Positions 2,653 to 58,453 of a stretch of 64,000 nt of DNA are shown piece by piece. The DNA is from Nitrospiria bacterium (GTDB lineage: Bacteria; Nitrospirota; UBA9217). The stretch is taken from the NCBI GenBank assembly GCA_919902495.1, contig CAKKRC010000075.1:1-64000 (forward strand), given 5' to 3'. The position numbers and the translations under genes are program-made. Every line of letters begins with the position of its first letter. The first letter of the stretch is position 1. The notes under the pieces are model-generated. The model was given only the letters and a program-made list of their open reading frames with translations, had not been told where the DNA came from and did not search any database.

Positions 2653-2697
2653 AAAGTTTCGTGGGATGTTCTTTTGTATTTAAGTTCTACTTACTTA

Positions 2698-2783
2698 TTG
2701 CGGATTTCGGATTGCGGATTGCGGATTAACGGCGGAACTTCAGCGGGTTTTCAATCCGCAATCCGCAATCTACAATCCGCAAT
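2698..2783. repeat. AATCCGC inverted repeat between lysC and cimA
   Basis: Tandem GCGGATT words at 2698-2727 face tandem AATCCGC words at 2753-2782 across a 25-base spacer, making a near-perfect hairpin. The same word pair brackets the four-helix-bundle gene at 53383-53848 and occurs one-sided at 7494-7518. This copy looks like an empty element with no gene inside. Confidence 0.8.
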
Positions 2784-2785
2784 CG

Positions 2786-4043: not shown

Positions 4044-4146
4044 TTTCACCGCAGAGAACGCAGAGAGCGCTGAGACAATACCTTGAATCTTGTTTTTCAA
4101 TCTTGAATGTCTTTCTCTGCGGCCTCCGCGATCTCTGCGGTAAAAA
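4044..4146. repeat. CCGCAGAG / CTCTGCGG inverted repeat
   Basis: ACCGCAGAGAACGCAGAGAG on the left faces CTCTGCGG ... CTCTGCGGT on the right, with about 40 bases of low-complexity spacer. It fills the apgM-lysC interval. Just before it, TATGTTTCGA is duplicated in tandem (about 4017-4036), upstream of the lysC GTG and close to its ribosome site. A relative of this hairpin lies upstream of lexA (52027-52160). Confidence 0.75.
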
Positions 4147-7446: not shown

Positions 7447-7493
7447 AGGTCTTCTCCCGGATTTCAGATCACTAAATGCTTGTCTCTCCAGAA

Positions 7494-7518
7494 TCCGCAA
7501 TCCGCAATCCGCAATTCT
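7494..7518. repeat. AATCCGC direct repeats
   Basis: Three tandem AATCCGCA words lie between the MoeB-like and TusA-like genes. Only a degenerate CGGATTT near 7457 could form the other arm. It belongs to the same family as 2698-2783 and 53383-53848. Confidence 0.6.
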
Positions 7519-7777
7519 ATTTTTTAACTTTCTCCCTGTCCTTGCGGACAACAATGCGCCATTCTTTTTCACTGGTCTGTTCCACGAGCAGGACCTTTTG
7601 CCCTTCGTTCTCCATGCTCTTGGGAACGTTCTCGACGGCTGCCTTGTGGTCAAGGATGATCTCAAGCACCTCTCCCACGTTCATCTTCTCGATCGCCAGT
7701 TTGGAGCGCACGAATGTATACGGACATACCTGACCCCTGATGTCGATCGTCCTGTCGACTTTTATGTCATCGGACAT
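7517..7777 (-). CDS. TusA/SirA-like sulfurtransferase
   Basis: An 86-residue protein with the TusA fold: VDRTIDIRGQVCPYTFVRSK at residues 7-26, where C18 is the expected persulfide-carrying cysteine in the CP motif, then GEVLEIILDHKAAVENVP and a basic tail. TusA proteins relay sulfur from cysteine desulfurases or other donors. The position between hom and the adenylyltransferase gene suggests that it feeds sulfur to the carrier protein. GGAG lies about six bases before the ATG at 7777; the upstream ATG at 7789 has no such site, so the shorter start is preferred. Confidence 0.85.
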   Translation of the reverse strand: MSDDIKVDRTIDIRGQVCPYTFVRSKLAIEKMNVGEVLEIILDHKAAVENVPKSMENEGQKVLLVEQTSEKEWRIVVRKDREKVKK

Positions 7778-51390: not shown

Positions 51391-52005
51391 TCAGGATATT
51401 CTCCTCATCACCCCCACGACCTTGCCAATGATGCGCAGATCTCCGCCGTCAAAATAAAGCGGCTCCATGGTCCGGTTCTCCGGCTGCAGCCGCACACGGC
51501 CGTTCTCCAGATAGAACCGCTTGACCGTTGCTTCGCCATCGACCAGGGCAACGACGATGTCACCGTTGGCCGCTGTGGATTGTTCCTGGACCACGACCGT
51601 GTCCCCGTCAAGGATGTGTGCATCCATCATGCTGTCGCCCCGGACACCCAGGGCAAAGACCTGTTGTGATGATCTGAGATCGAAGAGAGAACGGTCCACC
51701 GTAAGATCGCCGTCCTTGTTCTCCGGCGACAGCACCGGCATGCCGGCGGCGACCCGTCCGAGGAGCGGGACGAGACTGGCCGGCCGCGAGCCGCCTATCA
51801 CGGCTATGCCGCGAGATCTGCCGCGCTCACGGCTGATATAGCCGCCCCGTTCGAGGACCAACAGGTGCTTCTCAACACCGTTCGTTGAACGTATGCCGAA
51901 CTTCGCGCCGATCTCCCGCAGGGTCGGCGGCATGCCGCGGCTCGCAGTCGTATCCCGGATAAATTCAAGTATTGCTTGCTGACGTTCGGATATTTTGTAT
52001 TTCAT
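51391..52005 (-). CDS. lexA: LexA repressor
   Basis: A 204-residue SOS repressor and autoprotease. The winged-helix domain is at residues 1-65 (MPPTLREIGAKFGIRSTNGVEKHL). The cleavage bond is A87-G88 in RVAAGMPVL, with catalytic S125 in GDSMMDAHI and K162 in ATVKRFY, all intact. It lies downstream of dinB on the same strand, 161 bases away, with a repeat-rich gap. The GAAC-N4-GTTC box at 54107-54118 fits a Gram-positive-type LexA site; no such box is seen directly upstream of lexA. A TTAGTACTAA palindrome at 52049-52058 is the only nearby candidate. Confidence 0.95.
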   Translation of the reverse strand: MKYKISERQQAILEFIRDTTASRGMPPTLREIGAKFGIRSTNGVEKHLLVLERGGYISRERGRSRGIAVIGGSRPASLVPLLGRVAAGMPVLSPENKDGDLTVDRSLFDLRSSQQVFALGVRGDSMMDAHILDGDTVVVQEQSTAANGDIVVALVDGEATVKRFYLENGRVRLQPENRTMEPLYFDGGDLRIIGKVVGVMRRIS

Positions 52006-52166: not shown

Positions 52167-53438
52167 TCAGTACTCCCGGTCCCCTCCCGGCCGCCATGCC
52201 GGTGAGATCACCCGCTCATGCTGATATCGTTCGGCAAGCGTGCCCCAGGTGACCGTGAAGTCACCATACCGGTCATTGATATCATCCATGGCCTCCGTCG
52301 TAAACTTGCGTTTGCGTTCGTCCGAAAACAGCGGGACCTGCGACATATGCCTTTCAAGGCTTGACACGCTCACTCCGACGAGACGGACCGGCTGGTCGAG
52401 GGAGATCCTTGCCAGAATCGCCGAGGCCGTCGCAAAGATGTCCAGCCCGTGCTCCACGGGACGCGGAAGCCGCTGCTGCCTCGAAAAGGTCTGGAAATCC
52501 GCATACCGGAGGGTCAGAGATACTGTACGACCGGTGTACCCCCCGCGCCGCAGCCTGCGTCCCACCTTTTCGCAAAGCTGCAGCAGATGCCGCTGGATCA
52601 TCTCGAGTTCCCCGCAATCCTGGTCAAGCGTCATACTGTGGCCCACGGACTTGGAATCCTCTTCGTCCTGCTCGGCCCGCGAGACAACGGGGTCGTCGTC
52701 GATGCCCCGCCCCATGTCCCGCAGCCGTTCGCCGAGAATGCCGAACGGCGCGGTCAGCTTCGCGAGCGGCGCCCGCCCCAGTTCCCCGCAGGTCCTGATA
52801 CCCATGGCAGCGAGCTGGTGCGTCAGGCTGGGGCCGATGCCGCACAGTTCCTTGACGGGCAGGTCCTCGAGCACCTCCTGTTCGTCGCCGGGGGAAATGA
52901 GCACGATGCCGTCGGGCTTCAACATGTCGCTGCCCAGTTTGGCGAGCAGCTTGTTCCGCGCGATGCCGACCGAGCAGGTGAGCCCCATGATCTCCCAGAT
53001 CTCATTTTTCAGGCGAACCGCGATCTGCACCGGATCGCCCATAAGCGACTCGCAGCCTGTAACATCGAGGAACGCCTCATCGATGGAGAACAGCTCGACG
53101 AGCGGCGTGAACCGCTCCCAGATCGTGATGAGCTGCTTGCAGGCCGAGGAATACTTTCCCGGCGAGGCAGGGACCAGCACGATGTCCGGGCAAAGATTCC
53201 GCGCCTCGTGGTATTGCATCCCGGTCTTGACGCCGAAAGCGCGCGCCTCATAGGACGGTGAGAGGATGACGCCGCGGCGCTCGGATCCGACCACTGCAAT
53301 GGGCTTTCCGCGAAGCGCGGGATCCGACCGTTGCTCGACCGAAGCGAAGAACGCATTCATGTCGATATGGAGAATGGAACGCATTGCGGATTGCGGATTT
53401 CTGATTGCGGATTGTAGCGTCGATAGATCAAGGCTCAT
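52167..53438 (-). CDS. dinB: DNA polymerase IV
   Basis: A 423-residue Y-family polymerase for error-prone lesion bypass. HIDMNAFFASVEQ is the first metal site (about residues 25-37), YEARAFGVKTGM follows, and SIDEAFLDVTG is the catalytic acidic pair. GIARNKLLAKLGSDMLKPDG, a helix-hairpin-helix and a little-finger domain complete it, with no beta-clamp motif obvious beyond SQVPLF. The ATG at 53438 has AAAGGACG upstream and overlaps the stop of the previous gene (ATGA). It yields 18 extra residues (including LQSAIRNPQSA) encoded by an AATCCGC repeat; the ancestral start was probably the ATG at 53384, which now lacks a ribosome site. Confidence 0.93.
   Translation of the reverse strand: MSLDLSTLQSAIRNPQSAMRSILHIDMNAFFASVEQRSDPALRGKPIAVVGSERRGVILSPSYEARAFGVKTGMQYHEARNLCPDIVLVPASPGKYSSACKQLITIWERFTPLVELFSIDEAFLDVTGCESLMGDPVQIAVRLKNEIWEIMGLTCSVGIARNKLLAKLGSDMLKPDGIVLISPGDEQEVLEDLPVKELCGIGPSLTHQLAAMGIRTCGELGRAPLAKLTAPFGILGERLRDMGRGIDDDPVVSRAEQDEEDSKSVGHSMTLDQDCGELEMIQRHLLQLCEKVGRRLRRGGYTGRTVSLTLRYADFQTFSRQQRLPRPVEHGLDIFATASAILARISLDQPVRLVGVSVSSLERHMSQVPLFSDERKRKFTTEAMDDINDRYGDFTVTWGTLAERYQHERVISPAWRPGGDREY
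53383..53415. repeat. GCGGATT arm at the dinB 5' end
   Basis: Tandem GCGGATT words end exactly at the ATG (53384) that encodes MRSILHIDMN of DinB. It is the left arm of an inverted pair whose right arm is 53815-53848; the four-helix-bundle gene lies between. Confidence 0.8.
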
Positions 53439-53794
53439 GATCTTCGTCCTTTTCTGGCCGTGTTGATAGAGCAAACCATGATCGCCAATATTTCATTTGC
53501 TTCCGTTACGATATCCTTAAGCCGCTGCCTTTCTAATATCCCGCTCTCGATAAGAAGTTCCATCCAGTATATGGACTCATCAGCCTCTTCCTCGACTATC
53601 GTCATTTTGCTGATAAAATCCGCGGAAGATCGCGCCCGACATGCAGACCGATAGTTCGCACCCACTGACGTCCCTGACCTTATCAGTTGCCGACCTATTA
53701 CCTCTCCTGTTTTACCCTTAGGCAGCGACTCCACCAACCTGATGATCCTTAATGCAAAATCCTTGGTCCTCTTTTTCAATTCCTCAGGAGTCAT
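53435..53794 (-). CDS. four-helix-bundle protein (S23/IVS family)
   Basis: A 119-residue protein of the family first met as the product of 23S rRNA intervening sequences and related to Avd of diversity-generating retroelements. Hallmarks: DFALRIIRLVESLPKG, VIGRQLIRSGTSVGANYRSACRARSSADFISKMTIVEEEADESIYWMELL, and a last helix LKDIVTEANEILAIM. Its biochemical role is not known; it may bind nucleic acid as a pentamer. It sits inside the SOS cluster between inverted AATCCGC arms. Its stop overlaps the dinB start (ATGA), so the two are translationally coupled. Confidence 0.9.
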   Translation of the reverse strand: MTPEELKKRTKDFALRIIRLVESLPKGKTGEVIGRQLIRSGTSVGANYRSACRARSSADFISKMTIVEEEADESIYWMELLIESGILERQRLKDIVTEANEILAIMVCSINTARKGRRS

Positions 53795-53814
53795 ACCTCG
53801 TCCTTTTGATTTTC

Positions 53815-53848
53815 AAATCCGCAATCCGCAATCCGAAATCCGCAATTT
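53815..53848. repeat. AATCCGC arm upstream of the four-helix gene
   Basis: Four AATCCGC-type words abut the TAA stop of the first SOS gene. Together with 53383-53415 they bracket the four-helix-bundle gene as inverted repeats. Confidence 0.8.
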
Positions 53849-54092
53849 AAGATTCTTCCGCCCGCGCCAGCCGCCAGTGCAGGCTGTCGCTCTGAAAACA
53901 GATCTCGTACAGCCCCTTCCCGTCACTCACGGAAAAATGATGGATCGTGGAACTCCCCTCGAAGGTCGTCCAGATAAAGGTCGTCTCCTTGATCCTGACC
54001 TGTCTGCCGTTCCAGGCAAACCAGACGGGGCGGATCGTTCCCCTGCTGAATACTGCGCCGACCTTGACCGGTTCATCTATGACGATTGCCAT
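53847..54092 (-). CDS. small protein of the SOS cluster (DUF6504-like)
   Basis: An 81-residue protein I can place only tentatively. PVWFAWNGRQVRIKETTFIWTTF, then IHHFSVSDGKGLYEICFQ and LHWRLARAEE match the pattern of DUF6504, a short beta-rich domain that occurs with Y-family polymerases (ImuB) in actinobacteria. It is the first gene after the LexA-box promoter and precedes the four-helix gene and dinB. It is probably translated from a leaderless mRNA, since the promoter -10 ends seven bases before the ATG and no ribosome site exists. Confidence 0.65.
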   Translation of the reverse strand: MAIVIDEPVKVGAVFSRGTIRPVWFAWNGRQVRIKETTFIWTTFEGSSTIHHFSVSDGKGLYEICFQSDSLHWRLARAEES

Positions 54093-54098
54093 GATGCC

Positions 54099-54127
54099 AA
54101 TATAGTGAACATTTGTTCACCTGTCAA
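54099..54127 (-). promoter_or_regulatory. SOS promoter with LexA box in the spacer
   Basis: On the minus strand TTGACA (54127-54122) and TATATT (54104-54099) are 17 bases apart. The spacer is the dyad GTGAACAAATGTTCAC plus one base, containing GAAC-N4-GTTC (54107-54118), the LexA site known from Gram-positive bacteria. LexA bound here would block RNA polymerase directly. Confidence 0.8.
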
Positions 54128-57149: not shown

Positions 57150-58303
57150 GCGCAGAGACAGAGGTGATATCGACCAAAGTAAAGAAATCCGTCGCACTTT
57201 CCGGCGTTATGGCGGGCAACACCGCCGTATGCACGGTGGGAAGGACCGGGAACGACCTTCATTACCGGGGCTATGACATTGTTGAGCTCGCGCGGCAGTC
57301 GACGTTCGAAGAAGTGGCCTTTCTGCTCATTCACGGCGACCTGCCGTCCGAGTCGGACCTGAAGGACTACCGCAAGAAACTGAAGAGCCTGCGGGGCCTG
57401 CCGGTACAGGTGAAAACGGTGTTGGAGCACATCCCGGCAGCGGCCCATCCCATGGACGTGCTGCGGACCGGCTGTTCCATCCTCGGCACCGTGCTTCCCG
57501 AAAAGGAGGACCGCAATATCCAGGGCACGCGGGACGTCATCGACCGGCTGGTGGCTTCGTTCGGATCGATGCTCATCTATTGGTGGCACTACAGCCAGAG
57601 CGGCAACCGGATCGACGTCGAAACGGACGACGAGACCGTGGCCGGACATTTCCTGCACCTCCTGCATGGCAGGAAGCCTTCGACCCTTCATGAGAAAGCG
57701 CTCGATCAGTCACTGATCCTCTACGCGGAGCATGAGTTCACCGCGTCGACCTTTGCCGCGCGCGTGATCACCGGAACGCTTTCCGATGTGCACTCCGCCA
57801 TCACCGGCGCCATCGGGGCACTCCGGGGACCGAAGCACGGCGGCGCCAACGAAGCGGCCCACGAGATCCAGAGGCGCTACCGCAACGCCGACGAAGCGGA
57901 AGCCGACATCAAGACCCGCGTGGCGAACAAGGAGATCATCATCGGCTTCGGACACCCCGTCTACACGGTGAGCGATCCGCGAAATCCCATCATCAAAGAG
58001 CTGGCGAAGAATCTCTGCAGCGACGGCGGCAATATGAAGCTCTTCTCCGTCGCCGACCGTATCGAGGCGGTCATGAAACGGGAGAAGAACATGTTCGCCA
58101 ATCTGGACTGGTATTCCGCGGTATCGTATCACATGATGGGTGTGCCCACCCCCATGTTCACGCCCATCTTCGTCATATCACGGACCACCGGCTGGGGCGC
58201 GCACATTATCGAACAACGCCTCGACAACAAGATCATCAGACCCTCGGCAAACTATATCGGCGAAGAGGACCGGAAGTACGTGCCGATAAAAGACCGAAAG
58301 TAA
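57146..58303 (+). CDS. prpC: 2-methylcitrate synthase
   Basis: A 385-residue citrate synthase-family enzyme, condensing propionyl-CoA with oxaloacetate. [26 protein letters not shown] is typical of methylcitrate synthases. The catalytic His and Asp regions are [28 protein letters not shown] and [24 protein letters not shown]. Context (prpB, prpD, acnA, prpE) decides in favour of PrpC over GltA. GGAGG in TAAGGAGG lies upstream of its ATG. A long hairpin follows its stop. Confidence 0.93.
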
Positions 58304-58388
58304 GAAGGTAAGAGGGAAAGAAGGAAAGATGACGCCTGTTCCAACAGGCAGTTTGCTTACCTTCCTACTTTCCTACCCTCTTACCTTC
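58304..58388. repeat. long hairpin between prpC and prpD
   Basis: GAAGGTAAGAGGGAAAGAAGG at 58304 onward faces CTTACCTTCCTACTTTCCTA and CTCTTACCTTC up to 58388, with a nested GCCTGTTCCAACAGGC hairpin at the top. On the transcript this makes a very stable stem that could limit exonuclease decay or uncouple prpC and prpD expression. Confidence 0.75.
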
Positions 58389-58453
58389 TGATTTAATCCG
58401 CATCCATGGCAATGCCATCTCATTACCTGAAATGATGAAAGGATAATTGAACA

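Follow-up and report, generated by a model that had tools for sequence, protein, structure and literature searches.

S23 genes between inverted arrays of private short repeats, a probable mobile element found across many phyla

The closest described setting for S23 genes is the IVS of 23S rRNA in Coxiella and Leptospira, where, as at the locus reported here, an S23p ORF lies within inverted ends; in the Coxiella IVS, tandem GACAGAT heptamers precede the S23p start (PMC4990558). RNase III cuts the IVS described so far out of the rRNA, which sets them apart from our focal element. The latter also differs in being intergenic, in carrying arrays on both sides, in having private repeat units per S23 subfamily and in being accompanied by dispersed gene-less arrays. 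REP/RAYT systems combine dispersed repeats, full and gene-less forms and a single cognate gene, as the S23 element does. However, REP/RAYT have a Y1 transposase and their ends are single imperfect palindromes, whereas the S23 element has no Y1 or other transposase domain and its ends are tandem 7-9-mers. A further point of comparison is Avd of the diversity-generating retroelements (DGRs), which has the same fold as S23 and whose homology to PF05635 has already been noted (PMC10053308); unlike DGRs, the S23 loci examined lack both a reverse transcriptase of the DGR type and template/variable repeats.

Short tandem repeats between genes have their own literature. In 7006 prokaryotic genomes surveyed in 2018, no intergenic repeat was more abundant than tandem heptamers, for whose function the authors saw no clear clue (PMC6344855). 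Xanthomonas has (GGGANTN)n arrays, mostly of four units and with 70 convergent pairs (PMC4692102), Geobacter has paired 7- and 8-mer arrays that were proposed as sites of global regulators (PMC2700814), Beggiatoaceae have the heptamer TAACTGA (PMC4679880) and Nostoc has the intergenic heptamer GGGGA(C/T)T (PMC4692102, PMC2700814 and PMC4679880 jointly). These published heptamers resemble S23-type arrays in having mostly four units, convergent pairs and hundreds of copies per genome, and the Xanthomonas GGGANTN, when rotated, fits the focal [G/T]NNGANT described below except perhaps at a weak first position. No paper linking heptamer arrays to S23 in general was found in the open-access literature, and the Xanthomonas, Nostoc, Beggiatoaceae and Geobacter papers, as searched, make no link to S23; here, heptamer arrays are tied to the S23 gene family.

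An S23 gene inserted in an SOS operon

The window, by which we mean the whole 64,000-nt stretch of DNA analysed, comes from a Nitrospiria bacterium (genome G000). An intact ORF on its minus strand (53435..53794) encodes a 119-aa S23/four-helix-bundle protein, P0001, which in profile searches matched PF05635 (1.5e-17, 64.2 bits, cut-off 33.8) and TIGR02436 (6.9e-26, 90.6 bits, cut-off 24). Upstream of the gene, on its sense strand, stands an array of the unit GCGGATT (ATTGCGGATTTCGGATTGCGGATTGCGGATT; 53816..53846, minus strand), and downstream stands an inverted array (53383..53413, plus strand), the inverted word being AATCCGC. The two arms are 31 nt each and 90% complementary, and they pair with each other in the predicted fold of the element RNA; their inverted-alignment score was 25, against at most 17 when 300 bracketed positions were drawn at random from the window. 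S23 is the sole gene between the arrays, with no transposase or recombinase, and the region 53300-53900 gave no Rfam match.

The initial annotation had described this segment as bounded exactly by its neighbours within an SOS operon, and this description held at both borders. The right array begins directly after the TAA stop codon of an 81-aa ORF upstream in the operon (53847..54092, minus strand; no family match), and the left array finishes on the ATG (53384-53382) where homology to DinB starts. The dinB gene (DNA polymerase IV, with IMS domains) was placed at 52167..53474 on the minus strand, its conserved start, judged from relatives, being 53384. A possible upstream dinB start on the same strand overlaps the S23 stop, giving the ATGA coupling that had been read into the inserted segment. 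Because of this overlap dinB may have an N-terminal extension, which overlaps the downstream array and may translate it into SAIRNPQSA. The operon's SOS character is borne out by lexA (51391..52005, minus strand; TIGR00498), by dinB itself and by a LexA/SOS-box-like palindrome, GAACATTTGTTC, adjoining the 81-aa gene at 54107..54118. Since a box this loose should match once by chance, it is its position that counts as evidence; the motif also lies directly upstream of dinB in G011 (L123).

The window also contains arrays that enclose no gene. A gene-less copy of the inverted repeat, previously placed at 2698-2783, is real and occupies 2694..2784 (inverted arrays 2694-2731 and 2750-2784; RNA fold -49.7 kcal/mol). 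There are, in addition, a solo GCGGATT-type array without an inverted partner (7485..7520), a gene-less hairpin with an 8-mer unit of the GAAGGTAA type (58296..58389), a unit type that also flanks S23 at a locus of G003 (L113), and gene-less inverted arrays with a 9-mer unit of the CCGCAGAGA type, as around GxxExxY genes, at about 4048..4144. Single AATCCGC words were not enriched in the window (21 observed, 15.5 expected). Genome array counts come from pattern searches, which across G000 found 241 double heptamers and 2 of the reversed pattern. The median number of focal-type three-unit arrays was 37.5 in the 26 relatives with S23 and 0 in the 15 without (p=2e-6), an excess that was also present outside the window's family (p=3e-4); two S23-less genomes showed 13 and 11 such arrays, the 13 being no more than its control. 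In G036, which has nine S23 matches, the reversed control pattern was hit 298 times (0-29 elsewhere), marking a further heptamer family that is abundant there.

Arrays without S23 far outnumber arrays with S23 in G000, and the arrays could therefore be independent host repeats, produced by slippage or by some other dispersed element, which merely serve S23 as landing sites. Such an origin does not readily account for S23-less relatives being almost without focal arrays, and we return to it below with the evidence from units and sites.

Array architecture and private units across the S23 family

Each of the seven PF05635 matches of G000 lies between inverted short tandem repeats of a different unit. 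GCGGATT is carried by the focal gene alone, and the units at the others include GACTGCC, GACGCGGG, GAAGTTGG and GCAAATT. AATCCGC proved not to be a general mark: the 7-9-mer differs from one S23 subfamily to the next, and one shared repeat marking the family is rejected. Among the G000 matches, L007 (contig C45) is a weak, S23-like one that forms part of a larger protein, whose gene neighbours a type I restriction-like gene; here 9-mer arrays lie within the coding frame.

Among the 41 relatives, and in named genomes belonging to many phyla, S23 genes likewise lie between inverted arrays. We compiled a non-redundant set of 211 S23 genes. They represent about 20 phylum-level groups, into which the records were sorted manually by title, with three left unplaced. 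An inverted flank score of at least 15 was reached by 88% of these genes, compared with 3.2% of 565 shifted positions; about 12% had no clear array pair. Among other ORFs of the same loci, 4.9% of 268 passed the inverted-array test, and three of the six best-scoring ones were GxxExxY or S23 genes themselves. The unit period was 7 in 175 S23 genes, 8 in 23 and 9 in five, and it was equal on both sides in 176/211 as against 95/565 controls. Arrays in direct orientation were not enriched around S23. Even outside the focal cluster, 86% of genes in S23 subfamilies had inverted arrays. These figures derive mostly from draft MAGs and from elements related by transfer, so that the statistics are not fully independent, and the shuffles and shifted positions are imperfect nulls. 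The initial annotation had named a lack of association between repeats and family elsewhere as evidence that would count against it, and the opposite was found. Short intergenic repeats are, in general, easily found, and GC- or AT-rich ones might pair around small intergenic genes by chance or composition; however, shuffled, shifted, ORF-based and flank-swap controls were all far lower, which refutes this explanation and leaves it with practically no credibility.

Several loci show further arrangements. Dense clusters of alternating arrays, with 36-bp spaced blocks, surround an S23 gene at L136 (1910-4030) and L140 (80-4031). On Planktothrix agardhii plasmids (L337-L339), S23 has hairpin arrays on both sides and is neighboured by drmD, the helicase gene of DISARM, in one direction and by a methyltransferase or restriction-modification gene in the other; array copy number varies among strains by whole units. 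Five S23 proteins matched no PADLOC model, and S23 as an anti-phage defence gene was rejected. Genes of the GxxExxY nuclease family (PF13366) lie in inverted arrays at 93% of 29 loci, against 1.9% of 53 controls, with units of 8-10 bp such as CACAGAGA (L067-L096, loci in relatives).

The repeat unit follows the resident protein. Array similarity tracked protein identity with a Mantel r of 0.52 overall and 0.51 for cross-phylum pairs (0.514 with GC removed), where the permutation maximum was 0.065; the correlation was 0.30 within the focal cluster (permutation maximum 0.25) and 0.17 among non-focal genes (0.08). The profile search was run with a single protein, the broad alignment being short of conserved stretches. 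When flanks were swapped within a genome, different S23 genes matched in 3.3% of cases, against 89% for a gene's own upstream and downstream pairs. In the focal cluster, which comprises 85 genes, the unit is [G/T]NNGA[T/A/G]T, identical at both ends, with A5 and T7 most conserved; the cluster's arrays have 4-5 units as their mode and one polarity, with the G-rich sense strand upstream (160:18). From this covariation we infer that an S23 protein would specifically recognise its own array. Alternatively, the arrays might be passed on together with the gene as one block, which would give covariation without binding. That the unit depends on the resident S23 across phyla, and varies within a single genome, also argues against arrays that arose independently of the gene.

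Filled and empty sites, and what might move the element

Close relatives had been suggested as the place to look for an empty site, and the sites compared are indeed polymorphic. At dinB, S23 is present in G000, G001 and G004, and the site is empty in G010 and G012, where the 81-aa gene adjoins dinB directly; the window's element would have landed between these two genes and joined the SOS operon. The unit differs by species among the filled dinB sites (GCGGATT, GCGGAGT), and both arrays of any one copy agree. The element occupies the ruvA-ruvB site of G000; the corresponding sites of G001, G002 and G010 are empty. The RR/HK site carries the complete element in G002 and G003 and a solo array alone in G000 and G004. 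The small intergenic insertion with one S23 gene that the initial annotation described therefore exists in full, gene-less and empty forms.

Related copies were also found at unrelated sites. The S23 genes of L045 and L050, from two genomes of one genus, are 96% identical, and those of L145 and L149, from one MAG, are 82% identical. In both pairs the copies are alike only between the arrays, with homology stopping in or just beside them; the empty sites are too diverged for an exact junction or a target-site duplication to be read. Two S23 copies in G026 are identical over 216 nt of reading frame and diverge more strongly in the arrays than within the gene itself, which suggests that arrays change fast, and the conserved core of the array is probably kept by selection. 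This one-contig genome has two near-identical S23 elements (L046 and L063) beside long, CRISPR-array-like runs of direct repeats. Plasmid records of Planktothrix, Calothrix and Trichormus/Scytonema showed changes in array copy number and no strain-level empty site. The S23 ORFs are under purifying selection where this is measurable (dN/dS about 0.05-0.14), and some copies contain stop codons.

Host repeats as landing sites would fit the solo RR/HK arrays, as well as near-identical plasmids that differ by whole array units. Related copies that retain both arrays at unrelated sites count against them, as do the unit's dependence on the resident S23 and the S23-less relatives, and on balance we regard this origin as unlikely. 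A purely regulatory role would have the S23 ring bind its own mRNA, as in TRAP-like autoregulation, while dispersed arrays regulate other genes and spread passively. The kept polarity and the purifying selection agree with such a role, as does the earlier suggestion for the Geobacter array pairs (PMC2700814). It leaves unexplained, however, the filled and empty sites, the copies at unrelated loci and the fact that a matching inverted array also follows the gene, and we consider it rather improbable.

We therefore prefer a mobile element, for which the initial annotation had considered mobilisation in trans by a reverse transcriptase or a transposase. The former did not hold up as a required mobiliser and is rejected, 18 of the 26 S23 genomes being without RVT_1; G000 itself has a single RVT_1 gene, which is on a different contig and apparently of the group II intron type. 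The case for a transposase is mixed. Y1 transposases do co-occur with S23 (25/26 genomes with S23 versus 7/15 without, p=5e-4; p=0.019 outside the family), but the complete genome G036 has nine S23 matches and no Y1 match, and, as far as they could be checked, the Y1 genes in G000 carry inverted ends unrelated to S23 arrays. Three of the latter, of the REP-associated type (L130, L132 and L133), lie between non-periodic inverted ends of 20-30 nt, for example GGGGACGTTGTTACTTACGTTGC. As the link to Y1 is one of association only, Y1 was not retained as the mobiliser, and movement in trans by either enzyme seems to us a poor prospect. Strand transfer would presumably be carried out by a host-supplied enzyme, which need not be a reverse transcriptase, and the architecture shared with GxxExxY genes is the main reason to consider a common mobiliser.

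The S23 fold and a reading of the element

The AlphaFold model of P0001 has a pLDDT of 96. Among PDB entries it comes closest to the S23 crystal structures 2rld (E 1e-6) and 2gsc, followed by Avd (8ub7 and 4dwl; TM about 0.7), and the S23 crystal structures have five chains per entry. On the basis of the model we infer that S23 is an Avd-like four-helix-bundle ring protein. Since the fold matches five-chain S23 structures and then Avd within a DGR ribonucleoprotein, single-stranded RNA is a plausible candidate ligand, and the match between a pentamer and the number of units is no more than suggestive.

Taken together, our data suggest that the array-S23-array unit is probably a widespread mobile element, whose spread or upkeep would depend on recognition of its own array. 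Such an element would comprise one S23 gene between two inverted arrays, each made of roughly 4-5 repeats of a 7-9-bp unit. The S23 ring would bind its own array, possibly with each subunit taking up one unit, in a single-stranded form (RNA transcript or ssDNA) whose polarity is kept. This recognition would be needed for the element, the gene-less hairpins and the solo arrays to spread or persist, the gene-less arrays being derivatives of the element.

As to classification, the focal element lies outside 23S rRNA and shares with IVS the stem-forming inverted ends around an S23 ORF; no S23 gene within an rRNA gene was found among 20 other sources of fetched loci. It has no transposase of its own, as an IS or transposon would, and no Y1 match, and the unrelated ends of the Y1 genes in G000 likewise separate it from REP/RAYT. 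Nor is the focal case a DGR, the RVT_1 gene of G000 being on another contig. By location it may thus stand outside IVS, and by its missing enzyme outside IS and REP/RAYT, or else it may be a free-living extension of IVS. A broader proposal, which we hold about as readily as we doubt it, is a class of mobile elements without transposase, in which a cognate ring protein reads the tandem 7-9-mers at the ends by way of a private repeat code. Diversification of the code would let orthogonal families coexist in one genome, intergenic heptamers would largely be ends or relics of such elements, and the 23S rRNA IVS would be copies that landed in rRNA. GxxExxY genes, a second and unrelated family, share the architecture.

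S23 proteins have solved structures (2gsc in 2006 and 2rld in 2007) and no known function. Linking the S23 family with intergenic heptamers gives each a partner and makes both testable. If S23 does bind its own array, the family would represent a transposase-free mobile element together with a naturally diversified code of protein-repeat recognition.
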